From the NCBI GenBank assembly GCA_020160935.1, contig JAIUPL010000004.1:62001-126000 (forward strand): a stretch of 64,000 nucleotides of DNA. Reading direction: 5' to 3'. Below, piece by piece: positions 5,781 to 63,389 of this stretch. Position 1 is the first letter of the stretch. Every line of letters starts with the position of its first letter. The position numbers were made by a program, and so were the translations under genes. The DNA comes from Bacteroidota bacterium. GTDB taxonomy: Bacteria > Bacteroidota > Bacteroidia > Chitinophagales > Saprospiraceae. Under the pieces are notes generated by a model. That model ran no database searches, had not been told where the DNA came from, and worked only from the letters and a program-made list of their open reading frames with translations.

Positions 5781-6220
5781 TTGTTATCAGTTATTGGTTA
5801 TCTTTTATCAGGGGTGGTAAGGGGAGATTGGTTTTTCAGGCTGGAGGCTCGGGAAGGGTTGAGTTGGTTGAGGAGTTGAGTTGGTTGAGAGGTTGAGTTG
5901 GTTGAGAGGTTGAGTTGGGTGAGAGGTTGAGTTGGTTGAGGAGTTGAGAGGTTGAGTTGGGTGAGGAGTTGATATTCAGCCACGCAGCAGCCGGAGTAAG
6001 GTTTTGGATCACATGAGTGGCCAACCTTCAACCTCTCAACTCCTCAACCAACTCAACCTCTCACCCAACTCAACTCCTCAACCAACTCAACCTCTCAACC
6101 AACTCAACCTCTCACCCAACTCAACCTCTCACCCAACTCAACTCCTCAACCTCTCAACCCTTCCCGAGCCTCCAGCCTGAAAAACCAATCTCCCCTTTCC
6201 ACCCCTGATAACCAATAACT
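5781..6220. repeat. Very long composite inverted repeat of gttgag/gttgggtgag units
   Basis: This fills the gap between the FAH-family gene stop (6219) and the amidohydrolase start (5768). The left arm is roughly 5789-5971 and the right arm roughly 6023-6220. The outer 60 nt are non-repetitive and nearly perfect (gttattggttatc, ggggagattggtttttcagg, ctggaggctcgggaaggg). The inner parts are tandem gttgag, gttggttgag and gttgggtgag units, with their complements opposite. The single-copy centre at about 5972-6022 includes the stretch cacgcagcagccggagtaag. Folded as RNA or single-stranded DNA it would form a hairpin of about 180 bp. Confidence 0.9.
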
Positions 6221-6830
6221 ACCTGACCTGACACGCCAACAACCGCTCCCCTTCCAAAAATCCCTCCAGTAAATCGCCGATCTGCATGGGGCCGACGCCC
6301 GCGGGCGTACCTGTGAAAACATAGTCGCCCTTTTGCACGGTGAAATACCGGGAGATGTGGCAGATCAAGGAGTCGAATGAAAAAAGCAGGTCGCGCGTGT
6401 GGCCGTCCTGCACCACTTCTCCGTTCTTTTTCAATTGAAAATGAATGTCTTGCGGGTTTTTCAGTTCCTCGATGGGCACAAAGCGGCTCAGGGGCGCCGA
6501 GCGGTCGAAACCTTTGGCGATTTCCCAGGGCTGACCTTTATCCTTGAGTTTGTCTTGCAAGTCGCGGGCGGTGAAGTCGATGCCGAATGCCACAGCGTCG
6601 TAGTAACGCGCTGCAAATTCGGGCTGTACGGAGCGGCCGTTTTTGGCGATGCGCAGCACGATTTCCCCTTCGTAGTGGATATTTTTACTAAAATCAGGGT
6701 GGTAAAAATGCCGGTTGTTGAGCAGCAGCGCCGTCGGCGGTTTCATAAAAATGAGCGGCTCTGCCGGAATGGGGTTGTTGAGTTCGCGGGCGTGGTCGGC
6801 GTAATTGCGGCCGATGCAGAATATTTTCAT
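6219..6830 (-). CDS. Fumarylacetoacetate hydrolase (FAH) family protein
   Basis: 203 residues, the short form of the FAH fold typical of acylpyruvases and related C-C bond hydrolases or decarboxylases. Family motifs are CIGRNYADHARELNN at the N-terminus, the metal-binding glutamates in IHYEGEIVLRI, FGIDFTARDLQ, KGFDRSAPLS and FTGTPAGVGPM near the end. It starts 6 nt after the ddl stop codon on the same strand, so mltA, ddl and this gene probably form one transcript. The substrate is unknown. Its TAG stop codon lies in the outer end of the large inverted repeat. Confidence 0.9.
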   Translation of the reverse strand: MKIFCIGRNYADHARELNNPIPAEPLIFMKPPTALLLNNRHFYHPDFSKNIHYEGEIVLRIAKNGRSVQPEFAARYYDAVAFGIDFTARDLQDKLKDKGQPWEIAKGFDRSAPLSRFVPIEELKNPQDIHFQLKKNGEVVQDGHTRDLLFSFDSLICHISRYFTVQKGDYVFTGTPAGVGPMQIGDLLEGFLEGERLLACQVR

Positions 6831-6836
6831 GCCAGA

Positions 6837-7811
6837 CTATCGAGGGTTGGATGAACACGCTTCTTCAATCAGCAGGGCAAAAAATTCGCCGAGCTCCCAG
6901 CCGTGGGCCTGTGCCTGCTGCGGAATAATGCTGGCCGGCGAAATGCCCGGAATGGTATTCGGTTCGAGCAGGTGAAACGTATCGCCCACCAGAATGTAGT
7001 CGATGCGAATAGCGCCCTTGCATTTCAGCAGGTCGTAAATTTTGCCGGTACGTTCCTGACACTGGCGCGTGAGTTCGGCTGACAGATCAGCCGGCGTCAC
7101 TTCCTTCGATTTGCCTTCGTATTTGGCGGCAAAATCAAAGAATTCTGTTTCGGGAATGATTTCCGTAACGGGCAGTACCACCACTTTGCCATTTACGCGC
7201 AGCACGCCGTTAGAAAATTCGCGGCCGGGCATAAACGCCTCCACCATCACTTCGTTGCTGTAGCGGAAAGCGTCTTCGATAGCCGGGCGCAGGGTCTCGG
7301 CCGTTTTTACTTTCGTGACGCCAAAACTGGAGCCGTTGTCGTTGGGTTTTACAAACAGGGGAAGGCCCAGTTGCAGCAATTTGACCTCATCGATCGGCTC
7401 GCCTTTGCGCAGCAGTTCCGAAGGCGCCATCGGGATGCCGTAGGGCGCCAGTTGGAGTTTGGTGTTGTGTTTGCTCATGGTGAGCGCGCTCACATACCCG
7501 TCGCAGCAGGTGTAGGGCACACCCATCAGTTCGAGGTATCCCTGCAATTTGCCGTCTTCCAGCGGGCTGCCGTGCAGGGCGGCAAAAGCCGCGTCGAAGC
7601 GGATTTTCTCCCCGTCGGCCAGCGTGAGGGAAAAATTGTTTTTATCCACTGCAATACCCGTATCCAGGTCTTTCCAGTCGGCTTTTTGAATATCGATCAA
7701 AAACGTGCGGTACCGATCTTTGGGCAGGTGGTCGCGCACGACTGCGCCACTTTTCAGCGAAATGACCCGTTCGGCGGAGTCGCCGCCGGTCAGAATAGCA
7801 ATATTTTTCAT
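6837..7811 (-). CDS. ddl: D-alanine--D-alanine ligase
   Basis: 324-residue ATP-grasp ligase that makes D-Ala-D-Ala for the peptidoglycan stem peptide in the cytoplasm. Visible motifs are ILTGGDSAERVISLKSG (N-terminal domain), FAALHGSPLEDGKLQGYLE, VKPNDNGSSFGV (ATP-grasp), EAFMPGREFSNGVL and the metal/substrate segment LLEPNTIPGISPASIIPQQ. ATG 7811 lies 2 nt after the mltA stop, which points to translational coupling. The partner D-alanine racemase activity and MurF are encoded as one fusion at 31816-34305. Confidence 0.95.
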   Translation of the reverse strand: MKNIAILTGGDSAERVISLKSGAVVRDHLPKDRYRTFLIDIQKADWKDLDTGIAVDKNNFSLTLADGEKIRFDAAFAALHGSPLEDGKLQGYLELMGVPYTCCDGYVSALTMSKHNTKLQLAPYGIPMAPSELLRKGEPIDEVKLLQLGLPLFVKPNDNGSSFGVTKVKTAETLRPAIEDAFRYSNEVMVEAFMPGREFSNGVLRVNGKVVVLPVTEIIPETEFFDFAAKYEGKSKEVTPADLSAELTRQCQERTGKIYDLLKCKGAIRIDYILVGDTFHLLEPNTIPGISPASIIPQQAQAHGWELGEFFALLIEEACSSNPR

Positions 7812-7813
7812 GA

Positions 7814-8911
7814 TTATTTTTCTTTGGGCAAAAGTAGCCAAAGTCGTCCGAAACGATTGATTTTTCGCGCCTCCTGCAAACCTTGCTGGCCCATGCCGCA
7901 GTAGAGGTCGATGCGTTTGGTGGTTTTGATGGCTCCACCGCGGTCTTGAGCGAAAATAATGCGGTATTTGTAGCCTTTCAGGCGGCCAGCGGCATCAATA
8001 TCGGGCAATTCGGCGAGCAGGGTACTACCGATCGGAATGTAGCGCGTGTCTACGGCTGCCGAGTAGCCCGCCGTGAGCGGGAAGAAGCCCGCGCCCAAGA
8101 TTTTTTCGTCTATTTCCTGAAAAAACACATACGTGCCGCCTGTGCCTTTCACCGAACCGCCGAAACCGAAGTGTTCGCGTTTTCCGTCGGGGAATTCGAC
8201 GAGGCAGGAGCCTTGCAACTGTGCATTTTGCAGTTCTTTTTTGCTGGAAAGCCAGGCGAGTTCGAGGCCTTTGCCGGCCAGTGCGCCTGCTTCAATGGCC
8301 GCCGGGTTGGGCACGCCGGAAGCGGGGCGTTTCAGCATGGGGTAGGAAAATTCCGGCGTTTGTGTCCGACTTGCCTTGATCAGCGGGGTGTAATAGCCCG
8401 TCACACGCACCTTGTCTTTGTTCAGATCAGTATTGATGCTGTAAAAATCGAAGGTTGTGAGCAGTACATTCGGGTCGAGCAACTGTATATTTTCCAGCAG
8501 TTCGACGGTGCGCAACATTTCACTTTGGGTAATGCCGGAAGCGCCGCGTACGGAGGAATCCTTGCGGCGCAGGTAGTTGGCCTGTTCGTACATGGCCTGC
8601 AGCATCAGTGGATCGAAGGCCAGGTAAGGTATGGTATCGGGTACGCCGGGGCGCAGCACGGCATTGGAGAGTTTGCGTTTTTTTCGCGCACCTTTTTTGC
8701 TTTCTTCGGGTTCAGGCTCTGGTTCGAGCGCCGCAGCCACGGTGTTTTCCTTTGCCGCTTCCTTTTTGGTAGTCAGTACGGCATTTTCAGAAGTTGCCTT
8801 GAAAGGAATGAGCACTTTCTCCGGTGCAGTGTGGTGCATTACCCAGAGAGAAGTGAGACACGCCAGCAATGGAAGTGCGTCCAGCAACAGAATTCTTTTT
8901 GTCAGCGACAT
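7814..8911 (-). CDS. mltA: MltA-type lytic murein transglycosylase
   Basis: About 365 residues. An N-terminal hydrophobic anchor (ILLLDALPLLACLTSLWVM) is followed by a low-complexity Glu/Lys linker (EPEPEPEESKKGARKKRK) and then the MltA and 3D domains: VRVTGYYTPLIKASRTQTPEFSYP, SCLVEFPDGKREHFGFGGS, GFFPLTAGYSAAVDTRYIPIG and the 3D signature IFAQDRGGAIKTTKRIDLYCG. The family cleaves the glycan strand to 1,6-anhydro products. ATG 9001 is an alternative start, but a -7-like element (acctttgc on the minus strand, about 9006-9013) lies almost on top of it, so ATG 8911 is preferred. It is followed directly by ddl. Confidence 0.85.
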   Translation of the reverse strand: MSLTKRILLLDALPLLACLTSLWVMHHTAPEKVLIPFKATSENAVLTTKKEAAKENTVAAALEPEPEPEESKKGARKKRKLSNAVLRPGVPDTIPYLAFDPLMLQAMYEQANYLRRKDSSVRGASGITQSEMLRTVELLENIQLLDPNVLLTTFDFYSINTDLNKDKVRVTGYYTPLIKASRTQTPEFSYPMLKRPASGVPNPAAIEAGALAGKGLELAWLSSKKELQNAQLQGSCLVEFPDGKREHFGFGGSVKGTGGTYVFFQEIDEKILGAGFFPLTAGYSAAVDTRYIPIGSTLLAELPDIDAAGRLKGYKYRIIFAQDRGGAIKTTKRIDLYCGMGQQGLQEARKINRFGRLWLLLPKEK

Positions 8912-9081
8912 ACGTGGGAGGACTTTCGCTATGTCAAAAGTAGCAGGTTTGTTGAGAAAGTCGCCTGTGTTGGAATAATTTTCTGTAGTGATTTTTCGCA
9001 TGATTCTGCAAAGGTGCGCATTTCTCGCAAAATTTTATTCTAAAAGTGCCATTTTGCTGTCCCTAACTCCGTGGATCGTAG

Positions 9082-9089
9082 TACATTTG
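9082..9089 (+). promoter_or_regulatory. Candidate Bacteroidota -7 element for the E2 gene
   Basis: TACATTTG matches the TAnnTTTG consensus 80 nt upstream of the acyltransferase start, in the divergent gap with mltA. A TTTG occurs at 9053-9056, but its spacing is longer than the usual 19-20 nt, so the -33 element is uncertain. Confidence 0.45.
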
Positions 9090-9169
9090 CACCGCTTTAA
9101 CCAAATAATTATCAAACAACCGAAAGGAAAGCCTTCTGGCGGCCTTTCATCCTGACTTATCTCTGCAAT

Positions 9170-10486
9170 ATGGCGCGCGTTGAACTCGTAATGCCCAAAA
9201 TGGGCGAAAGCATCATGGAAGCCACCATTCTGAAATGGCGCAAAAAAGCCGGAGATCGCATCGAACTCGACGAGCCGGTTCTCGACATTGCCACTGACAA
9301 GGTCGACAGCGAAGTGCCGTCGCCTGTTGCAGGTGTGCTGGTAGAAATCCTTTTTCAGGAAAACGACGTGGTTCCGATCAATAAAGTGATTGCAGTGATC
9401 GAAACGGAAGCCTCCAACGCACAACCGGCCGCTTCTCCTGCCGTCAGCCAGCCCGCAGCGTCGGTCGGCCAAAGCGAGGCCGCACAGGTGCCCTATGTGC
9501 CTGCTGCCACGGTGGCTGCTCCACAACAGGCCGCTTCGGCTGCTTCCGGGCGTTTTTACTCGCCGCTGGTAAAAACCATCGCCCGCGAAGAAAGCATCAG
9601 CCAGGCCGAACTCGATACCATTCCAGGCTCGGGTCAGGACGGCCGCGTCACCAAAAAAGACATGCTGGCCTACGTTTCCACCCGCCAGAAAGGCGCTCCG
9701 GTAGCCCCGGCGGCTCCTGCGGCGGTAGCACCCGCTGCGCCTGCCATTCCGCAATCCCCGGCCGTCAGCATCAGCGGCAATGTGGAAATTGTGGAAATGG
9801 ACCGCATGCGCAAACTCATTGCCGACCACATGGTGATGAGCAAACACACCAGCCCGCACGTGACCTCCTTTGTGGAAGTGGACGTGACCAACATGGTAAA
9901 CTGGCGCAACAACGTAAAAGACAAATTCAAAAAACAATACGGCGAGAACATCACCTTCACACCGATTTTCGTGGAAGCCATCGTTCGTGCTATCCGCGAC
10001 TTCCCGATGATCAATGTTTCGGTGGACGGCACGCGTATCATCGTTCGCAAAGACATCAATATCGGCATGGCGGCAGCGCTGCCTTCCGGCAACCTGATCG
10101 TACCGGTGATTAAAAATGCCGACAACCTCAACCTGCTCGGCCTCACCAAACAGGTGAACGACCTGGCAGGCCGCGCCCGTCAGAACCAGTTGAAACCCGA
10201 GGAGATTCAGGGCGGCACTTTCACCCTCACCAATGTAGGTACCTTCGGCAACGTGATGGGTACACCGATCATCAACCAGCCGCAGGTGGCCATCATGGCT
10301 GCCGGCGCCATCCGGAAAAAACCGGCGGTTATCGAAACGGAATACGGCGACGTGATTGCCATTCGCCAGATGATGTTCCTGTCGCTTTCCTACGACCACC
10401 GCGTGGTAGATGGCATGCTGGGTGGCTCGTTCCTGCGCCGCGTGGCCGATTACCTGGAGCAATTTGATGCGAACCGGGCGGTGTGA
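9170..10486 (+). CDS. Dihydrolipoamide acyltransferase (E2) of a 2-oxo acid dehydrogenase complex
   Basis: 438 residues. The N-terminal lipoyl domain carries its lipoyl lysine in DIATDKVDSEVPSP (K44). An Ala/Pro-rich linker follows (about residues 85-122), then an E1/E3-binding domain (YSPLVKTIAREESISQAELD, GRVTKKDML), a second Ala/Pro linker and a C-terminal catalytic domain with the H-x-x-x-D-G motif in YDHRVVDGMLGGSF (H410, D414). It transfers acyl groups to CoA. Sequence alone does not separate pyruvate, 2-oxoglutarate and branched-chain types; the MPKMGESIMEATILKW start is most like branched-chain or general E2 proteins of Bacteroidota. No E1 or E3 gene lies nearby. Confidence 0.92.
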   Translation: MARVELVMPKMGESIMEATILKWRKKAGDRIELDEPVLDIATDKVDSEVPSPVAGVLVEILFQENDVVPINKVIAVIETEASNAQPAASPAVSQPAASVGQSEAAQVPYVPAATVAAPQQAASAASGRFYSPLVKTIAREESISQAELDTIPGSGQDGRVTKKDMLAYVSTRQKGAPVAPAAPAAVAPAAPAIPQSPAVSISGNVEIVEMDRMRKLIADHMVMSKHTSPHVTSFVEVDVTNMVNWRNNVKDKFKKQYGENITFTPIFVEAIVRAIRDFPMINVSVDGTRIIVRKDINIGMAAALPSGNLIVPVIKNADNLNLLGLTKQVNDLAGRARQNQLKPEEIQGGTFTLTNVGTFGNVMGTPIINQPQVAIMAAGAIRKKPAVIETEYGDVIAIRQMMFLSLSYDHRVVDGMLGGSFLRRVADYLEQFDANRAV

Positions 10487-10489
10487 TAC

Positions 10490-10615
10490 TTCGGTGCTTG
10501 GTATTTAAAAAAATAATGACTATCCGCATATTTTACCTTGCCTATTTTACTGTTGGCAAGGTACCACATGCTGATCGTCATTTTAAAAAATATCGAATTT
10601 CGAACACCGAAGTGT
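10490..10615. repeat. Imperfect palindrome between convergent E2 and deacetylase genes
   Basis: The outer arms acttcggtg (10490-10498) and caccgaagt (10607-10615) pair perfectly, with weaker AT-rich pairing inside. A central 9-bp stem taccttgcc/ggcaaggta lies at 10534-10542 and 10555-10563. The block fills the gap from the E2 stop to the convergent stop. Nt 10514-10556 recur downstream of dnaE at 48992-49035. Confidence 0.75.
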
Positions 10616-10623
10616 TAGACTGC

Positions 10624-11238
10624 TCACATCATTATCGGCTCAAAACTCCATCCCTTCTCTCCGAAGTGCTGTAGCAGTCCCGTCAGCGCGTGCCGCATAT
10701 TGGGCGCCGCTTTGATGCTGTCGTGCAGCACCACGATCGAGCCCGGGCGGCAATGGCGAAGAATATTGTCGAGGCATTTTTCCGGTGAAATATTGCGGTC
10801 GAAATCGCCGCTGAGTACATCCCACATGACGATCTGGTGTTGATTCCGAATGGCTTTAGCCTGACTCGACCGTAGCCGTCCATATGGCGGACGAAACAGG
10901 CGGCCGGGCACAAGCCGGGCACAAGCGGCCACGTTATTCAGGTAATGTGCATCCTCGTTTTTCCATCCGTTCAGGTGCTGGTGGGTGTGGTTGCCTACGC
11001 TGTGGCCTTCTGCCAGAATGCGCTGAAAAATAGCCGGGTAGCGCTGCACATTTTCCCCTACACAAAAGAATGTGGCCTTTGCTCCGGCGGCCCGCAGGGT
11101 ATCGAGCACCCAGGGCGTCACTTCCGGAATGGGGCCGTCGTCGAAGGTCAGGTACAGGATTTTTTCCTTCACTGGCATGCGCCAGGTGAAGCCAGGAAAC
11201 AGGCGTTGCACAAGGGCGGGCATTTTTACGATATACAT
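10624..11238 (-). CDS. Polysaccharide deacetylase (NodB/CE4 family)
   Basis: 204 residues, the compact single-domain CE4 size. NodB motifs are present: motif 1 LYLTFDDGPIPEVTPWVLD (catalytic base and metal Asp), motif 2 HSVGNHTHQHLNGW (metal histidines), motif 3 RLFRPPYGR, motif 4 VMWDVLSGDFDRN, and motif 5 IVVLHDSIKAAPNM. It would remove N- or O-acetyl groups from a polysaccharide or peptidoglycan. The start at 11238 gives a short basic N-terminus without a clear signal peptide. The frame continues to 11436, but that part translates the cttgcc-type intergenic repeat (runs of LLPLA) and is surely not coding. Confidence 0.9.
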   Translation of the reverse strand: MYIVKMPALVQRLFPGFTWRMPVKEKILYLTFDDGPIPEVTPWVLDTLRAAGAKATFFCVGENVQRYPAIFQRILAEGHSVGNHTHQHLNGWKNEDAHYLNNVAACARLVPGRLFRPPYGRLRSSQAKAIRNQHQIVMWDVLSGDFDRNISPEKCLDNILRHCRPGSIVVLHDSIKAAPNMRHALTGLLQHFGEKGWSFEPIMM

Positions 11239-11263
11239 AGCAATTGAAGAAAAGGGCGAATTA

Positions 11264-11530
11264 CAAGAAGCAAGAGGCAAGAAGCAAGGGGCAAGGGGCA
11301 AAAGGCAATAAACAAGGGGCAAAAGGCAAGAGGCAAAAGGTAAAAGAGGAAAACCAGGAATGGGGTAGACTGTATAGAATCGACGTTCATACCTCCACAG
11401 GTAATCCAAACTGCAGGGTAATTTTTTTAATTTCACAAAACACTGACAACCATTGTTTTTTTGCCTTTTGCCCCTTGTTTATTGCCCCTTGCCCCTTGCT
11501 TCTTGCCTTTTGCCCCTTGCTTCTTGCCCC
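11264..11530. repeat. Inverted repeat of ggcaaggg/cttgcccc units
   Basis: The left arm (about 11264-11336, caagaggcaagaagcaagg and so on) and the right arm (about 11459-11530) are reverse complements apart from one extra unit on the left. They surround about 120 nt of single-copy sequence. The block sits between the start of the deacetylase gene and gltX, so it lies in 5' regions and not only at gene ends. A shorter, unpaired cttgcc block occurs at 62351-62385. The single-copy stretch and the rest of the gap to 11770 show no further gene. Confidence 0.85.
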
Positions 11531-11770
11531 TGAAACTTGTGAAGGTTTTGCCAATTAACGACACGGGGGTTCCTCAAAAGCAGAAAACTGTTACTTTTGC
11601 TCCGGTTTATGCAAAGCGCGACGGCTGGTACTTTCGGTCGCCGCGCATTTTTTTCTCCGAATGAGAGCACTTCAGTTATTGAACGATGTGCTTTTGAAAA
11701 CCAACGGGACGGCAAGGTAGTCATATGGCAACATCTTTGCGGCCCGGAATTTTGACAGTTAAAACATACG

Positions 11771-13270: not shown

Positions 13271-13338
13271 GGGCCGACGAACTCCGAAACCATACTTGTG
13301 AAATGACCCTGTTTTTTCACCCGAAAACAAACTGAACC

Positions 13339-13521
13339 ATGCAAAAGCAGAAAAAAACGCCCCCTTTGCCGGACAGGAAAAGTGCCAAAAAGGAAAAACC
13401 CTTGAAAAACCTCGACATCCGGGTCAATACGCTCGGACAAATCGAAAAGGATTTTAACATCGACGACATCAATGCTTTTCTGAACGAAAACGTCCCGGAT
13501 AAAAAGTTTGAAGAAAAATAA
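13339..13521 (+). CDS. Small basic protein of unknown function downstream of gltX
   Basis: 60 residues. The N-terminal half is Lys/Pro-rich (MQKQKKTPPLPDRKSAKKEK) and the second half looks folded and acidic (IRVNTLGQIEKDFNIDDINAF, then LNENVPDKKFEEK). There is no signal peptide, membrane segment or cysteine. Codon choice resembles its neighbours, and ATG 13339 lies 68 nt after the gltX stop on the same strand, so co-transcription is plausible. I do not recognise the family. Short charged proteins of this shape in Bacteroidota are often nucleic-acid- or ribosome-associated, but that is only a guess. Confidence 0.6.
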   Translation: MQKQKKTPPLPDRKSAKKEKPLKNLDIRVNTLGQIEKDFNIDDINAFLNENVPDKKFEEK

Positions 13522-13624
13522 CAGGGAGAGGGATCGAGTATGCGAATCCGTTTTTTGTTTTTTAAACTTACCTGGCATATGCCGTTTTTTTAATCCAGTC
13601 AACCGAAAATATCCCTTGACAGTT

Positions 13625-21579: not shown

Positions 21580-21586
21580 GTTACAA

Positions 21587-21658
21587 GTAGTGAGTAGTGA
21601 GTAGTGAGTGGTGAGTAGTCCACTCACTACTCACCACTCACTACTCACTACTCACCAC
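21587..21658. repeat. Hairpin of gtagtga units between adhesin and PorP/SprF genes
   Basis: The left arm (about 21589-21618) is tandem gtagtgagtagtga and the right arm (about 21627-21656) is its reverse complement, about 29-30 bp nearly perfect, with an 8-nt loop (tccactca). It starts just after the adhesin stop codon. Lying inside a presumed operon, it could attenuate or stabilise the transcript at the adhesin/PorP boundary. Confidence 0.9.
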
Positions 21659-21693
21659 TCACCACTGACGACTAATCTCCAACCGCTATTTTG

Positions 21694-27434: not shown

Positions 27435-27509
27435 ACACCCTACGCTTTGTGTCCATTGTGCCCTCCGTGGTTAAATATTGAACCACGGAGGGCACAATGC
27501 GTAGAGTGT
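27435..27509. repeat. Bulged palindrome between convergent genes
   Basis: An 18-bp perfect stem (27455-27472 with 27481-27498, core attgtgccctccgtggtt) has an 8-nt loop. An outer 11-bp arm, acaccctacgc and gcgtagagtgt, pairs with one mismatch across a 9-nt bulge (tttgtgtcc). It sits between the thioredoxin-family stop and the convergent small membrane-protein gene. Confidence 0.85.
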
Positions 27510-29944: not shown

Positions 29945-30063
29945 TTTGTGTTTTGGTGTTTTTGTGTTTTGGTGGGCTTCGCTCCTGGTATTTGAATAAG
30001 GTAAGCCCATTTTCAGATGCCAAGAGCGAAGCCCTTCAAAACACTAAAACACCAAAACACAAA
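29945..30063. repeat. gtgttttg-type inverted repeat, copy 1
   Basis: The left arm (about 29945-29994) reads tttgtgttttggtgttt, then gggcttcgctcctggtattt; the right arm (about 30018-30063) is the complement (ccaagagcgaagccc, then aaaacactaaaacacc). It fills the gap between the alanine dehydrogenase stop and the PPIase start. A second copy with the same gggcttcgctcttggtattt core lies at 51189-51372, in the same position relative to a minus-strand gene start. Confidence 0.88.
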
Positions 30064-31815: not shown

Positions 31816-34305
31816 ATGTTGTATTCAATTCAAGATATTGCGCAAATAATTCAGGCCCAATGGCTGCAGTCATCCAATCCGGAAGCAGGCATTGAACACT
31901 TGTTGTTCGACAGCCGGCAGGTGGCGGCGCCCGACCGATCGCTGTTTTTTGCACTTGCAGGCGAACGGCAGGACGGACATCGATACCTCGCTGACCTATA
32001 CAAGGCAGGGGTGCGCCATTTTGTGGTGAGCAAACCGGTGCAGGTTTCCGATTTTCCGAATGCCAATATCTTGCTGGTTTCCGATACGCTTCGTGCGCTT
32101 CAGGCGCTGGCGCAGCAGCACCGCAAGCAGTTTCATATTCCTGTAGTGGCCATCACCGGCAGCAACGGCAAAACGGTGGTGAAGGAATGGCTCTGGCAAC
32201 TTCTTAGCCCCGATTTTCACATCGTACGAAGCCCCAAAAGTTACAATTCCCAGATCGGCGTTCCCTTGTCTGTCTGGCAAATGCGCCCCGAACACACCCT
32301 GGCGCTGTTCGAAGCGGGCATTTCCAAACCCGGTGAAATGCAACATTTGGCAGGTATTATCCAGCCTGAAATCGGCGTTTTTACCAATATCGGCCCGGCG
32401 CACCGCGAAGGATTCCGCAACGACGAAGAAAAAATACGGGAAAAAATGCGCCTGTTCGACAGCGCGCGGGTGCTGGTGGTTTGTGCCGATCAGCCCGCCG
32501 TACTGGCCGAAGCGCAGGTGTGGCAACGGGCGCAGGAGGGCCGCCAGTTGTTCACCTGGTCGACAAGCGGGCAAGCCGCCGATGTGCAGGTTATTGGTAT
32601 TCAGCCTGTTGCAGATGGTTTTTTGCAAATACGGGCGGCATTTCGGCAAATGATCGAACTGGGCGTGGTGGAAATTCCATTTTCCGATCCGGCCTCGCTC
32701 GAAAACGCTATCCATTGCTGGGCAGTAATGCACCTGCTGGGTGTACCGCAAAAAAGCATCGCCGAACGCATGCGCCGCCTCGAACCGGTGGAAATGCGCC
32801 TCGAACTGAAATCGGGTATTCGCCACTGCACGCTGGTCAACGACTTTTACAACAACGACCTGGCGTCGCTGCGCATCGCCCTGCAATTTGCCCGCCACCA
32901 GGCCCGAACCGGAAAATTTACACTGATCCTGTCCGACATCCTGCAAAGCGGCCTGTCTTCCAACGATTTATGGGCTGAGGTGGCCGATTCCATCCGTTTG
33001 CAGGGTGTGAGCCGGCTGATCGGCATTGGCGCCGATATTTCGGCCATTCGGGAACATTTGGGCGCAGGTTTCGATGCGGCTTTTTACCCGGATACGACAA
33101 CTTTTTTGCAAAATATTGCCGTACACGATTTTCACGACGAACTGATTCTGCTGAAAGGCGCCCGCCCTTTCGAGTTCGAACGCATTGCCCGCCGACTGGA
33201 ACAAAAAGCCCACAAAACCCTGCTGGAAGTCAACCTTACCGCCATGGTACACAACCTGAATGCCTACCAGCGCCTGCTGAAACCCGGCACACGCACTATG
33301 GCTATGGTAAAAGCGGCGGGTTATGGCTCCGGCTCGTCGGAAGTGGCGAAAATGCTGGAATTTCATCGCATCGACTACCTCGGCGTGGCCTATGCCGACG
33401 AGGGCATCGAACTGCGGCATTCAGGCGTCAACCTGCCGATTCTGGTGCTCAACCCCGAACCCGCCAGTTTCGACGCCATGTACCGCTTCCGGCTCGAACC
33501 CGAAGTGTACAGCCTGCCCATGCTCGACGAATTGATACACTATGCAGGGAAGGACAAAAACCTGTCGATCCACCTGAAAATGGACACCGGCATGCATCGC
33601 CTCGGTTTTGAGGCCGAAGACATCTCCGAACTGACCACTCGATTGCTGGAATACCCCAATCTGCGCGTCCAAACCATTTTTTCGCACCTGTCGGCCAGCG
33701 ACGCCACGCAACACGATGCTTTCACGCACCGGCAGGCGGCCACTTTCCGCGCCCTGTCGGATCAGGTGGGCGCCGTGCTGGGCTACATGCCCGTTCGGCA
33801 TATCTGCAACACGGGCGGTATCGTGCGTTTCCCGGAATACCATTTCGATATGGTGCGGCTGGGCATCGGGCTGTATGGCATCGACAGCGCCGGCCTGCAG
33901 GATCAACTGCGCGTGGTGAATACGCTGAAAGCCACCATCAGCCAGATCAAGGAAATTCCGCCCGGCGATACCGTGGGTTACAACCGCAACAGCGGCCCCC
34001 TCGCCCACCCTACGCGCATCGCTACCATCAGCATCGGTTATGCCGACGGCTTTTTGCGGCTGGCAGGTGGCGGGCGCTACTCGGTGCTGGTGCGCGGCGA
34101 ACGGGCGCCTACCATCGGCAATGTGTGCATGGATATGACCATGGTCGACATCACCCATATCGAGGCCGCGCGGGAAGGTGATGAGGTCGTGATTTTTGGT
34201 GAAAACCCGCCGGTGCAGGAACTGTCTGCCTGCCTGCAAACGATTCCTTATGAGGTGTTTACAAATATTTCGGAACGGGTGAAACGGGTGTATTGGCAAG
34301 AATAA
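31816..34305 (+). CDS. MurF-alanine racemase fusion (UDP-MurNAc-tripeptide--D-Ala-D-Ala ligase / Alr)
   Basis: 829 residues. The N-terminal MurF part (about 1-455) has the ATP-binding motif VVAITGSNGKTVVKEWL, SPKSYNSQIGVPLSVWQM, the metal/substrate region ALFEAGISKPGEM and the NDFYNNDLASLRIALQ segment. The Alr part starts about residue 466 (HKTLLEVNLTAMVHNL), with the PLP lysine in MAMVKAAGYGSG (K499), LKMDTGMHRLGFE, the Tyr region TVGYNRNSG and GNVCMDMTMVDIT. The fusion makes D-alanine and attaches D-Ala-D-Ala to the murein precursor. MurF-Alr fusions are known in Bacteroidota. Some MurF motifs are loose (for example PVEMRLELKSG). Ddl, the enzyme between the two steps, is encoded at 6837-7811. 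Confidence 0.94.
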   Translation: MLYSIQDIAQIIQAQWLQSSNPEAGIEHLLFDSRQVAAPDRSLFFALAGERQDGHRYLADLYKAGVRHFVVSKPVQVSDFPNANILLVSDTLRALQALAQQHRKQFHIPVVAITGSNGKTVVKEWLWQLLSPDFHIVRSPKSYNSQIGVPLSVWQMRPEHTLALFEAGISKPGEMQHLAGIIQPEIGVFTNIGPAHREGFRNDEEKIREKMRLFDSARVLVVCADQPAVLAEAQVWQRAQEGRQLFTWSTSGQAADVQVIGIQPVADGFLQIRAAFRQMIELGVVEIPFSDPASLENAIHCWAVMHLLGVPQKSIAERMRRLEPVEMRLELKSGIRHCTLVNDFYNNDLASLRIALQFARHQARTGKFTLILSDILQSGLSSNDLWAEVADSIRLQGVSRLIGIGADISAIREHLGAGFDAAFYPDTTTFLQNIAVHDFHDELILLKGARPFEFERIARRLEQKAHKTLLEVNLTAMVHNLNAYQRLLKPGTRTMAMVKAAGYGSGSSEVAKMLEFHRIDYLGVAYADEGIELRHSGVNLPILVLNPEPASFDAMYRFRLEPEVYSLPMLDELIHYAGKDKNLSIHLKMDTGMHRLGFEAEDISELTTRLLEYPNLRVQTIFSHLSASDATQHDAFTHRQAATFRALSDQVGAVLGYMPVRHICNTGGIVRFPEYHFDMVRLGIGLYGIDSAGLQDQLRVVNTLKATISQIKEIPPGDTVGYNRNSGPLAHPTRIATISIGYADGFLRLAGGGRYSVLVRGERAPTIGNVCMDMTMVDITHIEAAREGDEVVIFGENPPVQELSACLQTIPYEVFTNISERVKRVYWQE

Positions 34306-34307: not shown

Positions 34308-34343
34308 GTCGTCAGTCCTGAGTCGACAGTCGACAGTCCTGCG
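34308..34343. repeat. Short cagtcctgagtc/cagtcgacagtc repeat after murF-alr
   Basis: Short direct repeats (cgtcagtcctgagtc, gacagtcgacagtcctg) begin just after the stop codon. The 12-mer cagtcctgagtc is shared with the large palindrome at 59516-59653. No paired arm is visible here, so it may be a decayed copy. Confidence 0.5.
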
Positions 34344-37679: not shown

Positions 37680-37958
37680 GAGACATCCCGAATTTTGGTT
37701 CGGAATTTTTCTTGCCCAAACTGATCGCGTAGAGTATTTTCCCGCAGATTTCCCGTAGAGTAATTTCCCGCAGAACTCGCAGATTTACCCGCAGAACTCG
37801 CAGAACGTAGAGTACACCGTGTACTCAATATGAAGAAGTTAGGTGTACTCTACGTTCTGCGAGTTCTGCGGGAAATTACTCTACGGGAAATCTACAGGAA
37901 ACAAGTTCCAAAAAATAAGATCCCGAACCCTGGCTTTGGCCAAAATTCGGGATGTCTC
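37680..37958. repeat. Nested palindrome of gcagaactc/gtagagta units
   Basis: Outer 19-bp perfect arms lie at 37680-37698 and 37940-37958 (gagacatcccgaattttgg). Inner arms of about 53 bp lie at about 37744-37818 and 37842-37895, where the left arm has one extra unit of about 20 nt (atttacccgcagaactcgcag). The loop is about 23 nt. The 12-mer gtagagtacacc (37807-37818) also occurs in the palindrome at 59516-59653. The whole gap 37436-37980 holds only the -7 element, the tRNA fragment and this palindrome. Confidence 0.9.
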
Positions 37959-49069: not shown

Positions 49070-49216
49070 GCCAAGGGTTGTTCAGGTGGTGGTATGGGCT
49101 TTAGCCCGTCGGGAAAGCGCCTTTTAAGGCACTCTGGAAAAAACAATAAATTAAGCGCCATGAATGCGCTGTCCCGACGGGCTAAAGCCCATACCACCAC
49201 CTGAACAGCCCTTGGC
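49070..49216. repeat. 51-bp inverted repeat between dnaE and mnmG
   Basis: Arms 49070-49120 and 49166-49216 pair at 49 of 51 positions (gccaagggttgttcagg, then gggctttagcccgtcggga). The 45-nt centre contains a small gcgcc stem. It fills the convergent gap. Confidence 0.93.
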
Positions 49217-51188: not shown

Positions 51189-51372
51189 AAGTGTTTGGGT
51201 GTTTAAGTGTTTTGGTGTTTGGGTGTTTTGGTGTTTTAGTGTTTAAGTGTTTTTGTGGGCTTCGCTCTTGGTATTTGTGGTTTAAGGGTAAACTTTCCCT
51301 CATCCCCAAGAGCGAAGCCCACAAAAACACTTAAACACTAAAACACCAAAACACTTAAACACCAAAACACTT
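51189..51372. repeat. gtgttttg-type inverted repeat, copy 2
   Basis: The left arm (51189-51276) is tandem gtgtttgggtgtttaagtg units ending gggcttcgctcttggtattt. The right arm (about 51302-51372) is the complement, ccaagagcgaagcccacaaa then aacacttaaacac units. It spans the gap between the GH65 stop and the mnmG start, the same arrangement as the copy at 29945-30063. Confidence 0.92.
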
Positions 51373-51381
51373 ACCCCTCCC

Positions 51382-55434: not shown

Positions 55435-55522
55435 CAAGCCCGGCAATGCCGGACAGGAAAACAACAAAGCATACTCCAAACCGTCGCTATCGACACAAAA
55501 ACATCACCAGAATTTGCGTTCA

Positions 55523-56884: not shown

Positions 56885-56973
56885 TTTTCGGCAAAACCAG
56901 CCACCTGCGCGCACGACCCTATCATTGTTTCCCGGTGTGGAACCGATTTCACACCCTGTTAAAAAAATGTATA

Positions 56974-59508: not shown

Positions 59509-59515
59509 ACCTTTG

Positions 59516-59653
59516 GAAGTCCTAAGTCCACAGTCCTGAGTCCTGAGTCTGTAGAGTACACCTTATTACCCTTGGCATTGTTACAAGGTAAAGCCGAGGA
59601 TAGTAAGGTGGACTCTACAGACTCAGGACTCAGGACTGTGGACTTAGGACTTC
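59516..59653. repeat. Perfect 42-bp inverted repeat of gtcctgag units, entering queD
   Basis: Arms 59516-59557 and 59612-59653 are perfect reverse complements (gaagtcctaagtccacagtc, then ctgagtctgtagagt). Looser pairing continues inward for about 19 nt more, leaving a loop of about 15 nt. The left arm starts 8 nt after the bamA stop; the right arm contains the last codons and the stop of queD. The 12-mer gtagagtacacc is shared with 37807-37818 and cagtcctgagtc with 34312-34323. Confidence 0.93.
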
Positions 59654-60043
59654 TACAAAGTTTCTCGGCGTTTCGTACAGCCGCACCCCCAGCCCATATT
59701 GTTCGGGCAAATGCGCACGCAAAATGCGCCATATCACGACAGCAATATTTTCTGCCGTAGGGTTCAGGTCGCGAAATTCTTCCACATCCAGGTTCAGGTT
59801 TTTGTGGTCGAAGCGGTCTTCAATTTCCCTTTTGATCAGATCGGCCAGCCAGCCCAGGTCGAGTACCATGCCGGTGTCGGGATCGATGTCGCCCGTTACT
59901 TTTACTTCCAGATCGTAGTTGTGTCCGTGGTAATTCGGGCTGTTGCACAGGCCGAATACCTCGCGGTTGCGTTCGTCGGACCAGGCCGGGTTGTGGAGGC
60001 GGTGCGCAGCGTTGAAATGAGATTTTCTGAAAACGGAAACCAT
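59630..60043 (-). CDS. queD: 6-carboxytetrahydropterin synthase / 6-pyruvoyltetrahydropterin synthase family (QueD-like)
   Basis: 137 residues with a T-fold. The Zn-binding histidines are in SHFNAAHRLHNPAW and the segment NSPNYHGHNYDLEV, and the catalytic Cys is in the GLCNSPNY part. DTGMVLDLGWLADLIK and LNPTAENIAVVIWRILR complete the pattern. The family makes pterin precursors of queuosine or biopterin; gene context does not decide. The last seven codons (VEVLSPQS end) are encoded by the right arm of the palindrome, so the family's usual NFVEY-type ending is altered after NFVE. Confidence 0.92.
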   Translation of the reverse strand: MVSVFRKSHFNAAHRLHNPAWSDERNREVFGLCNSPNYHGHNYDLEVKVTGDIDPDTGMVLDLGWLADLIKREIEDRFDHKNLNLDVEEFRDLNPTAENIAVVIWRILRAHLPEQYGLGVRLYETPRNFVEVLSPQS

Positions 60044-60050
60044 GGGAGAG

Positions 60051-60083
60051 GTGAGAGAGAGTGAGAGAGTGAGAGAGTGAGAG
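60051..60083. repeat. Simple tandem gtgagagag repeat upstream of queD
   Basis: Tandem gtgagaga(g) units directly upstream of the queD start codon; no complementary arm is visible nearby. It may affect expression by length variation. Confidence 0.7.
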
Positions 60084-60142
60084 GCTAGAACCGTTGGGAG
60101 GGAAGGAGGTTCACGGAAAGGGGAAATCCAAACTAAAACGTT

Positions 60143-60781
60143 CTACTCCTTTCGCGTTTCCGCCCTAACAGCCTCAAAAACTTGCCTAGTCGAATATTCT
60201 CCAAAGTAGGCATGGTAAAATCCGCTCGGATAAATCACCACAAAACTGCCGCAAGGATAGTGATAAGGGAAAAAGGTCTTTTTAATTTGGTCATTCAAAT
60301 CAGCATACCAAGGCACTACTCCATAATATCTGGAAAGCCCTGATGAATCGCTGTAAATATTGAATTGTTGCAAAGGTGCAATTCCATATAGTTCCTTGAT
60401 GTATTCCCTGTAACGCTTTCGCAAATACGTGGGCGTTTGGCTAGAGGAGGAATTGCACATATCTTTTCCGGGGTAATAATCGATCACAAGAATCTGGTTG
60501 CTATCGATAGAAACCTGTGCGGTGGCTTCCAGGCCGGTTCTGATTAACCGGAGATTTTCGCGGCTCAGTTTACCCCGATTATCACGACGAACGATCCTGA
60601 ATTCCAGGCTGCTGTCGGTTTCGTGTTGAATATGCAGAAATGCGCTGTTGTCTTTTTCGCCCTTGCGGTATTCCTTTTTGGAAATTGATTGGTTGTTTTC
60701 GTTCAGAAACAAGACCTGTTTTTGCTGGGAAAAGGACGAAAATGCGCCAAACAGGAAAATGAAAAGCAGGATTTTTTGCAT
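60143..60781 (-). CDS. Exported protein of unknown function
   Basis: 212 residues with a signal peptide (MQKILLFIFLFGAFSSFSQ). The mature part starts QKQVLFLNENNQSISKKEY and contains DYYPGKDMCNSSSSQTPTYL with a lone Cys, RKRYREYIKELYGIAPLQQF and a C-terminal GSFVVIYPSGFYHAYFGEYS that loosely resembles a redoxin end. I do not recognise a family with certainty. Base use is more AT-rich than most neighbours, suggesting recent gain. ATG 60781 is chosen for the signal peptide; the longer frame to 60838 would enter the palindrome at 60815-60957. Confidence 0.7.
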   Translation of the reverse strand: MQKILLFIFLFGAFSSFSQQKQVLFLNENNQSISKKEYRKGEKDNSAFLHIQHETDSSLEFRIVRRDNRGKLSRENLRLIRTGLEATAQVSIDSNQILVIDYYPGKDMCNSSSSQTPTYLRKRYREYIKELYGIAPLQQFNIYSDSSGLSRYYGVVPWYADLNDQIKKTFFPYHYPCGSFVVIYPSGFYHAYFGEYSTRQVFEAVRAETRKE

Positions 60782-60814
60782 GTGGGGTAGATGTTTGGAA
60801 TGGGTGTTTTGAAG

Positions 60815-60957
60815 GGCTGTCCCATAAGTAGCGCACATAGAATCTGGTCAGGTTTTTATTTTGTTTTTCATTGTGAAAACCTATGAGGTTTTGAAAACCT
60901 CATAGGTTTAATGCTCGATAAAAATAAAATATCGCCAGCCGGGCTTATGGGACAGCC
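60815..60957. repeat. Nested palindrome with cataggttt core
   Basis: The outer 14-bp arms ggctgtcccataag (60815-60828) and its complement (60944-60957) surround a perfect 16-bp inner hairpin (60877-60892 with 60894-60909, aaacctatgaggtttt). It spans the gap from the ABC permease stop to the start region of the orphan secreted gene. Confidence 0.88.
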
Positions 60958-60964
60958 TCCTACC

Positions 60965-62290
60965 TCACCCCTTATAAAACAGCCACTTGCTAATCTCTTT
61001 CAAATTCACCTTTTTGCCATACAGCAAAATACCCACGCGGTAAATTCTGCCGGCCAGCCATACAAAGAAGAAGGCTGAAATGACGACCAGCAACAGCGAC
61101 AGCCCCACCTGCCACCATGGCGGATTAAAGGCCATACGGAAAGGCATAACGATAGGTGAAAACAACGGAAACATCGAGGCAAAAACCATAAGTCCGCTGT
61201 TGGGATTGCGCACGCCAGCAAATACCGTGATATAAAATGCCAGGATAATCGGGATCATGATGGGCAGTACCAGCGACTGGCCTTCGCCGAGGTCGTCGCC
61301 CATGGCCGAACCGATGGCCGCAAACAGCGAAGAATAGATGAAATAGCCGCCCAGGAAGAAAATGATAAACGAAAAGGCGATCATGCCCCAGTTCTGCTTG
61401 GCCAATTCGGCCATCAGGCGCATGCCTTCGCCCTGCATCTGATCCGGATCGGGCATGGGCATACCGCCAGGGTTCATGGCGCCTTGCATGGCAGCAGGGT
61501 CGGGACCGCCTACAAACAACGGAACCAACATAGTGACCGCACCGCTCAACACCACCCAACATAACACCTGTGTAAGGCCTACAGCGCCCGCGCCAATGAT
61601 TTTGCCCAGCATTAAATCGAAAGGGCGTACGCTCGACATCATCACCTCGACAATGCGGTTGGTTTTTTCTTCCATCACCGATTTCATCACCATCTGGCCG
61701 TACAGCATCACCATAAAAAACATGATAAACGCCATGATGCCACCAATAGCCAGCCCGATACCCGCAGTGTATTTGCTGTCGTCTTCAGCGCCGCTGATGC
61801 TTTCCGGGTCGATAGAAACTTCCGTATCGAGTGTTTCGAGGCTTTTTCGGTCGATGCGCAGGGAGTCGATTTTAAAATCGCGAATTTTATCGGCGATTTT
61901 TCCTTCGATCGCGCCGCTTTTTTCAGGGGCCAGCCTGTCGTCGGAGTAGTAGAAAATGGTGTGTTCCTTTTTCTGGAAGGAGCCCAGGGGCGGAATGCGC
62001 AGCACACCGTCGATCTTTTTTTCCTTGACTTCCTCCTTGAGTTGATCGAGGGTTTTTCCTGTACCCGATACGTAGCGCACGGCTTTGTCGTCTGGAATTT
62101 GTTTGAGCATTCCGGCTTCGTCGAGCAGCGCCACGGTGAGTTGGCCGCCACTTTCGTATTTCGTGAGCCCAACTATGACCAGCATGTACACCAGCAAGCC
62201 CAGTGGCGCCAGCAGGGTACCGATGATGAAGGATTTTTTGGTGACGCGGGTCAGGTATTCGCGCCGTATGATGAGTCCAAGTTTTGACAT
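60965..62290 (-). CDS. ABC transporter permease (ABC-2/NatB type)
   Basis: 441 residues. An N-terminal membrane helix (IIGTLLAPLGLLVYMLVIVGL) is followed by a large extracytoplasmic domain of about 120 residues and five or six more helices (for example AGIGLAIGGIMAFIMFFMVM, IAFSFIIFFLGGYFIYSSLF). A conserved MKSVMEEKTNRIVEVMMSSVRP segment is diagnostic of the NatB/ABC-2 exporter family. It would form an exporter with the ATPase gene upstream on the same strand (gap 88 nt). The substrate is unknown. Confidence 0.92.
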   Translation of the reverse strand: MSKLGLIIRREYLTRVTKKSFIIGTLLAPLGLLVYMLVIVGLTKYESGGQLTVALLDEAGMLKQIPDDKAVRYVSGTGKTLDQLKEEVKEKKIDGVLRIPPLGSFQKKEHTIFYYSDDRLAPEKSGAIEGKIADKIRDFKIDSLRIDRKSLETLDTEVSIDPESISGAEDDSKYTAGIGLAIGGIMAFIMFFMVMLYGQMVMKSVMEEKTNRIVEVMMSSVRPFDLMLGKIIGAGAVGLTQVLCWVVLSGAVTMLVPLFVGGPDPAAMQGAMNPGGMPMPDPDQMQGEGMRLMAELAKQNWGMIAFSFIIFFLGGYFIYSSLFAAIGSAMGDDLGEGQSLVLPIMIPIILAFYITVFAGVRNPNSGLMVFASMFPLFSPIVMPFRMAFNPPWWQVGLSLLLVVISAFFFVWLAGRIYRVGILLYGKKVNLKEISKWLFYKG

Positions 62291-62385
62291 TTTTGTTATC
62301 AGTTATCCGTTAACGGTTATCAGTTATCAGGGTGGTTAAGGGCACACCAGTTGCCTCTTGCCCTTTGCCTCTTGCCTCTTACTTC
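62291..62385. repeat. Composite repeat: gttatcagttat block plus cttgcc block
   Basis: Directly upstream of the ABC permease start is ttttgttatcagttatccg followed by ttaacggttatcagttatc and agggtggttaaggg. This matches the start of the large repeat at 5781-5822 almost base for base. It is joined to tandem cttgcc units (62351-62385) like those at 11459-11530. The two blocks come from different repeat families and are fused here. Confidence 0.8.
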
Positions 62386-63290
62386 TCAGTCTTTTCACCC
62401 GTTTCTTCTACTCGTCGAATAAAAATTTCATTGAAGGTGGGCAAGATTTCCTCAAAACGCGTTACGCGCACCTGATGGTCGAGGAGGTAGCGAAGCAGAT
62501 CATTGCTTTCCGAGTCGGAGGCAAGTTGAATAGTAGCCGTTCGTTTGGAATGATCGACGGTCTGGAAGCGCGTGAGGATATCCGCAGGCATTTCACCATC
62601 CGTTTCTACCTGGAAAAGGTTTTGCTTGTACTGGTTTTTGATGCTTTGTACTTCGCCTTGCAACACGTTTTTGCCGCGGTTGATGAGTACAATGTTATCG
62701 CACATTTCCTCTACCTGTTCCATGCGGTGGGTACTGAAAATGATGCTGATACCTGATTCGTTCAGTTGTCTGATTTCATCCTTGATGAGGGTGGTATTGA
62801 TCGGGTCGAGGCCTGTAAACGGCTCGTCGAGGATGAGCAATCGGGGCTTGTGGATGACGGTAGCAATAAACTGGATTTTCTGTTGCATACCTTTTGACAG
62901 GTCTTCCACTTTCTTGTTGTACCAGTCCTCGATATCGAATTTTTCAAACCAGTTTTTGATAGCCTGTTGTGCCTGCAGGCGTGTGAGCCCTTTCAACTGT
63001 GCGAGGTACATGAGGTGTTCGCCCACCTTCATTTTTTTGTACAGGCCTCGCTCCTCGGGCATGTAACCTATTTTTTCCGGAGATCGCTCATTGAGTTTTT
63101 CTCCATCGAGGTATATCGCGCCGGAATCAGGCCCCGTAATGGTGGTAATCATACGGATCAGGGAGGTTTTTCCGGCGCCATTCGGCCCCAGCAGTCCGAA
63201 AACGCTCCCTTTCGGCACGTCGAAACTCACATGATTTACTGCCTGATAATTGCCATATGATTTGACAACGTCTTGTATAGAAAGGATCAT
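62379..63290 (-). CDS. ABC transporter ATP-binding protein
   Basis: 303 residues. The Walker A motif is LLGPNGAGKTSLIRM, the signature LSKGMQQKIQF, and Walker B LLILDEPFTGLDPIN. A C-terminal DUF4162-like extension (from about residue 220) is typical for the ATPases of NatAB-type exporters. The frame extends to 63494 but the upstream part translates gttgag repeats; ATG 63290 (MILSIQDVVKSYGNYQAVNH) is the real start. It pairs with the permease downstream. Confidence 0.94.
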   Translation of the reverse strand: MILSIQDVVKSYGNYQAVNHVSFDVPKGSVFGLLGPNGAGKTSLIRMITTITGPDSGAIYLDGEKLNERSPEKIGYMPEERGLYKKMKVGEHLMYLAQLKGLTRLQAQQAIKNWFEKFDIEDWYNKKVEDLSKGMQQKIQFIATVIHKPRLLILDEPFTGLDPINTTLIKDEIRQLNESGISIIFSTHRMEQVEEMCDNIVLINRGKNVLQGEVQSIKNQYKQNLFQVETDGEMPADILTRFQTVDHSKRTATIQLASDSESNDLLRYLLDHQVRVTRFEEILPTFNEIFIRRVEETGEKTEK

Positions 63291-63305
63291 GAGTGGTAGG
63301 TGTAA

Positions 63306-63389
63306 GTTGATAAGGTTGATATGGTTGATGAGGGTTAAGGGGAGTTGAGAGGTTGAGAAGGGTTGAGGGGTTGAGAAGGGTTGAGGGGT
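63306..63389. repeat. gttgag/gttgagggg tandem repeat upstream of the ABC ATPase gene
   Basis: Units such as gttgataag, gttgagag, ggttgagaagggttgaggg repeat directly upstream of the ATPase start. They belong to the same unit family as 5850-5971. No complementary arm is visible within the remaining gap (to 63544), so this copy is one-armed. Confidence 0.75.

Follow-up and report, generated by a model that had tools for sequence, protein, structure and literature searches.

The cyanobacterial STRRs are heptanucleotide arrays that lie between genes in direct orientation. Heptamer arrays with the unit TAACTGA have been described from intergenic regions of Beggiatoaceae, Cyanobacteria, and five Bacteroidetes, and their transfer mechanism was not evident (MacGregor 2015, PMC4679880). 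They run in direct orientation apart from one inverted set, and those of the main genome lie in most cases immediately 5' of start codons (PMC4679880). GTAG/CGTC repetitive extragenic palindromes (REPs) are 20-40 bp long and carry an unpaired tag (Di Nocera 2013, PMC3733652), palindromic mononucleotide (A)n/(T)n microsatellites occur in organelles (mitochondria; PMC7218506), and inverted repeats are in general excess in intergenic or regulatory regions (PMC4060949, PMC10434271). In RNA genes, hairpins can be maintained by template switching (Monttinen and Loytynoja 2022, PMC8794818). Here we describe intergenic hairpins whose arms are strings of short words, found in a 64,000-nt stretch (the window, G000:C17:62001-126000) of an uncultured Saprospiraceae (Bacteroidota) metagenome-assembled genome (MAG) of 5.84 Mb, G000, the parent contig C17 being 291,252 nt long. 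Positions are those of the window unless prefixed with a contig. These hairpins share with the STRRs the heptanucleotide intergenic arrays, and the direct orientation of the latter, as generally described, sets the two apart. Like the mitochondrial palindromic microsatellites (PMC7218506) and repetitive hairpin elements, they are short repeats in palindromic arrangement that are optional between species, but the words are of 6-10 nt and the host is a bacterium. Among the matches listed for the open-access literature, excluding subscription journals and preprints, no title or abstract opening describes word-array hairpins of this kind.

We propose, with about even confidence, that word arrays, probably grown by slippage, were folded into hairpins, kept self-complementary at the DNA level by template switching, and retained at the 3' ends of genes. 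The arrays, of 6-10 nt words, would grow, and fold-back (template-switch) synthesis would convert them into inverted pairs. One arm would then repeatedly template the other, as quasi-palindrome correction at the DNA level and not as selection on each RNA base pair. The hairpins would persist where they are least harmful or of some use, close behind stop codons and most of all where genes converge, and at such sites one family could be replaced by another. The presence of the same word families at many loci means that copies must spread from one locus to another. What we infer in this account is the slippage, the route by which copies spread, any role at 3' ends, and that template switching is the event itself.

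The abundance of the hairpins was observed directly. They were detected with an einverted-like inverted-repeat scan at score cut-offs of 48, 54, or 60, with dinucleotide shuffles as the chance control. On C17, 53 inverted repeats scored at least 54, one per 5.5 kb, and there was none in each of four shuffles. At a score of at least 60, the density was 17.9 per 100 kb on C17 and 21.8 in a further 371 kb of G000 (the starts of 20 contigs). This gives 133 hairpins in 662,147 nt and, by extrapolation, roughly 1,170 in G000. Most are intergenic (49 of 52 on C17 and 68 of 81 elsewhere in G000). The initial annotation had listed inverted repeats in at least ten gaps of the window. All 12 of its positions hold one, 11 scoring at least 48 in the C17 scan and the one at 60815 scoring below, and the seven unit pairs that it named can be read at or near their places. 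An inverted-repeat search of the kind that it had suggested, covering C17 and the 20 contig starts, found hairpins far above chance, chiefly in gaps.

Relatives were named through one window protein and are Saprospiraceae, Bacteroidota, or Bacteroidetes MAGs. G040 (MAG-362, JAEUUT) is 88% identical to G000 in DNA over a 10-kb stretch and 72-91% per aligned block along C17, while G006 and G016 are 82% identical to G000 in one gene. In small, non-random samples, the density per 100 kb was 17.9 in G040, 32.5 in G006, and 30.0 in G016 (the latter two from 40 kb each). Other genomes were hairpin-poor: G007 had 6 in 200 kb, 0 in 12 kb, and 3 in 15 kb; G008 had 0 in 60 kb and 6 in 40 kb, one of these word-like; G012 had 1 in 60 kb, 1 in 12 kb, and 2 in 24 kb; G011 and G018 had 0 in 40 kb each, and G004 had 0 in 19 kb. 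Three order-level relatives had 0-2.5 per 100 kb. Between or above these were G005 (11.7), G020 (10.0), G021 and G023 (15.0 each), and G014 (43.8, from 16 kb only). The arms are low-complexity arrays and the named relatives are metagenome assemblies, so the hairpins might be chance products of low-complexity gaps or assembly artefacts. However, the shuffles were empty, families and sites recur in MAGs from different records, and relatives of similar G+C, such as G007 (G+C 0.50), have a far lower density. This explanation is hardly credible and is already refuted in practice. The word-hairpin feature is real, genome-wide, and unusual.

By reading of the sequence, 8 of the 12 listed hairpins are strings of 6-10 nt words: GTTATNN with GTTGAG, GGCAAGN, GTAGTGA, GTGTTTNN (twice), CGCAGA, CGGATTT, and AGTCNNN. 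Further word types on C17 are GTTGAT, GTGAGAG, GTTATGA, and GGATT. In a tandem test on arms of at least 30 nt, lag autocorrelation reached 0.6 or more in 56 of 185 arms, compared with 6 shuffled arms and 2 control stretches, and the lags were mostly 7, 8, 10, and 14. With looser motif patterns, 155 of 193 hairpins were assigned to a word family. The initial annotation had stated that families are joined differently at different loci, and this holds: the inner core GTAGAGTACACC stands behind AGTC-, GTGAGAG-, and CGCAGA-type outer arms, and the core GCTTCGCT behind GTGTTTT and GTGAGAG arms. Its further suggestion that modules move or recombine stands only as far as families recur in new combinations. 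Genome-wide reuse itself is directly seen.

The two arms change together. We compared G000 with G040, one genome per species; no second strain was found. Of the 59 hairpins on C17 scoring at least 48, 36 had a G040 interval; the others lay inside one alignment (5), at apparent breakpoints (5), on different contigs (2), or lacked anchors (11). Among 643 aligned pairs there were 55 two-sided changes from one Watson-Crick pair to another, where 4.7 are expected if the arms are independent. This pool required an arm identity of at least 0.55; it admits a few globally misaligned swapped gaps (#34, 27 pairs; #39, 6 pairs) and omits #18 and #49. In the 12 gaps that clearly hold the same family, per-site divergence was 27% in the loop and 14% in the arms, and transitions and transversions numbered 22 and 25 among two-sided changes and 39 and 26 among one-sided changes. 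For example, AGAGT/ACTCT in the hairpin at 59516..59653 is AGCGT/ACGCT in G040. The same was found within the family of that hairpin, F1. Of the 28 F1 hairpins, 24 were aligned (the G006 copy was omitted, as were three long composites that contain inserted sequence), and 30 of 60 pairs had two-sided changes. These amounted to 111 cells versus 39 in shuffles, which do not preserve the kinship of copies, and none of 500 shuffles reached 111. Sliding the register reduced pairing from 92.8% to 26-39%. In one copy (L066:1941) a single base is missing from each arm, and the two positions correspond to within one column.

When co-directional gaps were oriented by transcription, G.U and A.C mismatches were equally frequent (113 versus 105, p 0.64), whereas base-by-base selection on RNA pairing would be expected to leave more G.U on the transcribed strand. 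G.U not exceeding A.C, together with 25 transversions among 47 two-sided changes, argues against stepwise RNA compensation and for a DNA-level process. We thus have fair confidence, from these alignments, that the arms evolve together at the DNA level. The hairpins resemble template-switch stems in their two-sided, pairing-restoring changes and in that long perfect stems could be made in one event. They differ from the RNA genes in being many multi-copy intergenic hairpins without a G.U preference and with family replacement at fixed sites (PMC8794818). Hairpin-templated repair was one of three origins offered by the initial annotation, and the two-sided changes make it the best supported of the three, although replacement by another copy would fit too.

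The sites persist between species, as the orthologous gaps show directly. In 116 orthologous gaps of G000 and G040, a hairpin was present in both species in 25, in G000 only in 5, in G040 only in 6, and in neither in 80 (odds 67, p 5e-15). Counted from the G000 hairpins, 24 of 32 gaps have a hairpin scoring at least 54 in both species, a tally that leaves aside gap 15 and a three-hairpin interval of 4.6 kb. The two hairpins are unrelated in 5 of the 24 shared gaps (21586, 66699, 73098, 94650, and 115930 on the scale of the window), with local scores of 13-20 compared with a median of 16 and an upper quartile of 21 for non-orthologous pairs. In another 3 of the 24 they are alike only in part. 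Therefore, the palindromes are not fixed at each locus in all relatives, an outcome that would have spoken against the initial annotation: the site remains and the family can be swapped. The gap at 10.5 kb holds three families in three species, TAATGACTATCCGC in G000 (score 49), GATTTAAGATT in G040, and GTGTTTAG in G016. One-armed and two-armed states also alternate between species, at 63306 (in our own reading of the alignment) and at C17:136262.

Placement relative to genes was likewise observed directly, with genes called by our own, non-standard hexamer-based finder. In five genome samples, the share of gaps with a hairpin differed with gene orientation (p 2e-12): 63 of 140 where the genes converge, 79 of 434 where they are co-directional, and 17 of 138 where they diverge. 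For 80 hairpins in co-directional gaps, the median distance was 3 nt from the stop codon to the hairpin and 38 nt from its end to the next start. This proximity to stop codons and the convergent enrichment would be expected of 3'-end RNA structures (bidirectional terminators, RNase III or exonuclease barriers) under selection for pairing. For such structures any strong hairpin would suffice, so families would interchange while sites persist, and two-sided changes would follow. On the other hand, hairpins are also present in divergent gaps, T-runs of the kind that follow the G+C-rich stem of an intrinsic terminator are not in excess (5 T within 10 nt in 11 of 383 flanks, 13 in the distal control), G.U equals A.C, and transversions make up half of the two-sided changes. 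TTTT occurred within 12 nt in 8 of 64 F1 flanks. In favour of 3'-end structures, short terminators were rarer in convergent gaps with a hairpin (3 of 66) than in those without (13 of 35). We considered whether hairpins replace short terminators; the difference was initially significant (convergent p 5e-5, co-directional p 0.005) but was lost after matching for residual length (5 of 64 versus 32 of 242, p 0.29). Thus the structured 3' ends suggested by the initial annotation fit the placement, but find no support in T-runs, mismatches, or terminator avoidance once length is matched. We regard selection on 3'-end RNA as a rather improbable explanation.

The third origin suggested, REP/MITE-like elements, applies to a minority. 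Two elements with GAGCGTG ends (C17:178921-179081 and C17:205027-205195) have a TTA target duplication and clean empty sites in G040, and so resemble miniature inverted-repeat transposable elements (MITEs) as commonly defined. The hairpins at 49070 and 60815 are also missing from their G040 sites. These four form a separate, MITE-like minority class. At the one nearly empty word-hairpin site examined (gap 145), no target duplication was seen by eye. G000 has two genes of the Y1_Tnp family, which includes the REP-associated tyrosine transposases (RAYTs), at C42:24808-25149 (L194) and C29:2332-2577 (L195, weak). The hairpins nearest to them are of the CACAGGGCGTTGCCC and GTTGGCGAGG types and are not word hairpins, and mobilization of word hairpins by a RAYT is therefore unsupported. 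On C42 the nearest word hairpins are more than 3 kb from the Y1_Tnp gene, although about 0.8 kb downstream there is a GTGAGAA array with one arm. A CACAGGGCGTTGCCCTGTG hairpin stands ahead of the C42 gene, and GTTGGCGAGGACGCCAAC hairpins surround the C29 gene; these are perhaps the genes' own REPs. Word hairpins resemble GTAG/CGTC REPs and REPINs in being intergenic palindromes downstream of genes and between convergent genes, and F1 contains GTAG. They differ from tagged REPs (PMC3733652) in that the GTAG of F1 is not an unpaired tag, since all 24 aligned copies have it paired with CTAC, within a stem of about 60 bp (60 pairs in the alignment), and in the other hairpin kinds near the Y1_Tnp genes.

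The word hairpins as a whole might still be non-autonomous mobile palindromes (MITE- or REPIN-like) moved by a transposase, their arms matching because young copies moved whole. The copy number is high (forward and reverse matches to the F1 pattern: 142 and 143 in G000, 165 and 163 in G040), the F1 architecture is constant, each species has private sites, F1 orthologues are hardly closer than paralogues, and true MITEs with TTA duplications are present. However, F1 copies differ from each other (mean identity 0.67) far more than the arms do (92.8% of cells paired), the site examined by eye had no duplication, both Y1_Tnp genes have other hairpin kinds nearest to them (transposases other than Y1 were not searched for), and sites mostly persist across species. 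We consider this origin unlikely.

Several observations weigh against arrays that are folded and then corrected arm by arm. The strict tandem test was passed by only the 56 arms given above, and 38 of 193 hairpins match none of the word motifs. The transversion share does not differ significantly between two-sided and one-sided changes (p 0.18), which is what correction predicts, but the numbers are small, and two-sided changes are only weakly clustered (12 near pairs versus 7.4, p 0.034). The arms of F1 often differ at their outer words, with equal word number in 15 of 28 hairpins and identical words at 58 of 92 positions. Moreover, seven F1 orthologue pairs (identity 0.54-0.84, mean 0.74) are barely above non-orthologous pairs (mean 0.67, maximum 0.86), a likeness that fits replacement by another copy as well as correction in place. 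The core comparison is between two species of about 88% identity and thus shows no mutation as it happened, so whole-element replacement by another palindromic copy would also look coupled.

Fold-back growth with correction at the DNA level might go further, to a self-renewing hairpin population in which arrays grow, fold back, and stay symmetrical by DNA copying, so that place is inherited and sequence is rewritten or swapped. This we put forward tentatively, as possible but somewhat doubtful. If true, the hairpins would belong to no transposon or RNA gene family and would instead be the product of a structure-making mutational process, possibly later used for 3'-end formation. Two-sided changes are commonly read as a sign that an RNA stem is functional. 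In these hairpins they are frequent without a G.U preference, indicating that covariation alone can mislead. The template-switch origin of stems is an open question in RNA evolution, and with tens of loci shared by close species this clade is a natural test bed for asking whether stems can arise and be kept up by template switching.

Arrays and hairpins rise together across the sampled species. Intergenic arrays overlapped a hairpin in 212 of 263 cases in G000, G040, G006, and G016, in 19 of 42 in six intermediate genomes (G005, G009, G020, G021, G022, and G023), and in 0 of 8 in G007. G008 and G012 had no arrays in 192 kb, and G011, G018, and the three order-level genomes had 3 arrays altogether, none in a hairpin. 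Arrays might have come first and hairpins later. Of 26 genomes searched, only two besides G000 and G040 matched the F1 pattern, G006 with 13 forward and 13 reverse matches and G016 with 0 and 2; the other 22 had none. A single match in G005 was all that the backward control gave. The GTTGAT pattern was found in 8 of 26 genomes, including hairpin-poor G007 and G009, with none in the backward control.

On the opposite strand and in another register, TAACTGA (PMC4679880) reads as the GTTATCA word family. A four-word degenerate pattern of these heptamers had 69 and 86 overlapping matches in G000, compared with 1 and 4 in the backward control, and any match was found in 24 of 395 Bacteroidota genomes, G000 included. 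Unlike the published repeats, those described here are inverted pairs, the hairpins as a whole lie mostly after stop codons, and there are many other word families (PMC4679880). Heptamer arrays akin to the unexplained TAACTGA repeats occur here in folded form at gene 3' ends. GTTATYR heptamer arrays were present in 14 of 171 genera, patchy like the published TAACTGA distribution, and the backward control matched 7 genomes including G000.

Loss of the hairpin nuclease SbcCD is not required as a cause, since the hairpin-rich G040, G006, and G016 have a short SbcCD-like pair. In G000 itself SbcC was matched only weakly, at its N-terminal ATPase, and SbcD not at all, an absence that is uncertain in an assembly 97.9% complete. 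SbcD matched at about 200 bits in G004, G008, and G012, whose samples are hairpin-poor but not all hairpin-free, and G014 just passes the cut-off. This association is confounded by kinship and is a lead at most.

The initial annotation had described the arms as purine-rich on one side and pyrimidine-rich on the other. This is true in part (mean departure from 0.5 of 0.103, control 0.059), and the stronger rule is a G/C asymmetry of about 2:1, with G exceeding C in the 5' arm (0.29-0.31 versus 0.13-0.15) and the reverse in the 3' arm, in every gap type. The skew extends about 60 nt beyond the detected stem and flips at hairpin centres (e.g., 5857-6151), divergent gaps included. Transcription as the sole cause was rejected, as the asymmetry is present at divergent gaps too, although hairpin-less convergent and divergent gaps have a weaker skew of the same sign (0.02-0.17). 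The outer flanks are not complementary to each other (p 0.64), so insertion of a hairpin into the loop of an older stem was rejected. Similarity of a flank to its own arm is commoner than to other arms (25% versus 4% at a score of at least 24), as expected of worn-down array ends.

The loci of the window are collected in Table 1.

Table 1. Hairpins, one-armed arrays, and MITE-like elements listed in the window, with their state in related genomes
Feature	Position	Structure and context	State in relatives
Hairpin, CACGGATTT/CGCGGATT words	3118..3244	arms 48/48 nt, convergent gap	G040: same family, 5 two-sided changes
Largest window hairpin	5797..6219	outer GTTATC words, inner GTTGAG array; arms 152/151 nt, 143 pairs	G040: 1,911-nt gap, no hairpin scoring at least 45; G016: different family from G000
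Weak hairpin TAATGACTATCCGC	10515..10582	score 49, convergent gap	
Hairpin, GGCAAG/CTTGCC words	11264..11526	arms 66/66	G040: shorter left array, no hairpin scoring at least 36
Hairpin, GTAGTGA words	21586..21659	arms 34/34	G040: unrelated hairpin (CAGTCGACAGTC)
Short hairpin CATTGTGCCCTCCGTGGTT	27454..27499	19 bp, score 57	G040: anchors on different contigs
Hairpin, GTGTTTTG words and GGGCTTCGCTC core	29945..30063	arms 57/57	G040: anchors on different contigs
One-armed AGTC-type word array	34312..34340	read from the sequence	
Composite	37681..37957	terminal repeats AGACATCCCGAATTTTGG/CCAAAATTCGGGATGTCT (by eye) flanking hairpin 37738-37901; CGCAGA words, GTAGAGTACACC core	G040: dozens of related places, none at the orthologous gap
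MITE-like hairpin GCCAAGGG...CCCTTGGC	49070..49216	arms 54/54	G040: absent from gap (12 nt versus 283), related copy elsewhere
Hairpin, GTGTTTTG words and GGGCTTCGCTC core	51204..51373	arms 68/68, 66 pairs	G040: same family, rearranged
F1 hairpin	59516..59653	AGTCNNN words, GTAGAGTACACC core, variable inner stem	
MITE-like element	60814..60957	ends GGCTGTCCCATAAG/CTTATGGGACAGCC, score below 48	G040: missing at aligned place
One-armed GTTATC array, then CTTGCC array	62295..62380		G006: GTTGAG hairpin at this gap
One-armed GTTGAT/GTTGAG array	63306..63389		G040: two-armed hairpin (own reading of alignment)

A 47-kb inversion separates G000 and G040 (C17 190658-237565 versus about 87700-128930 of G040 contig C181). 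An association of hairpins with its breakpoints was considered and rejected: one of the two G000 breakpoints has a hairpin, of the GTGTTTT type, and the G040 sides have none. Within the window, one reading frame of 829 aa (31816-34305) joins Mur ligase and alanine racemase domains.

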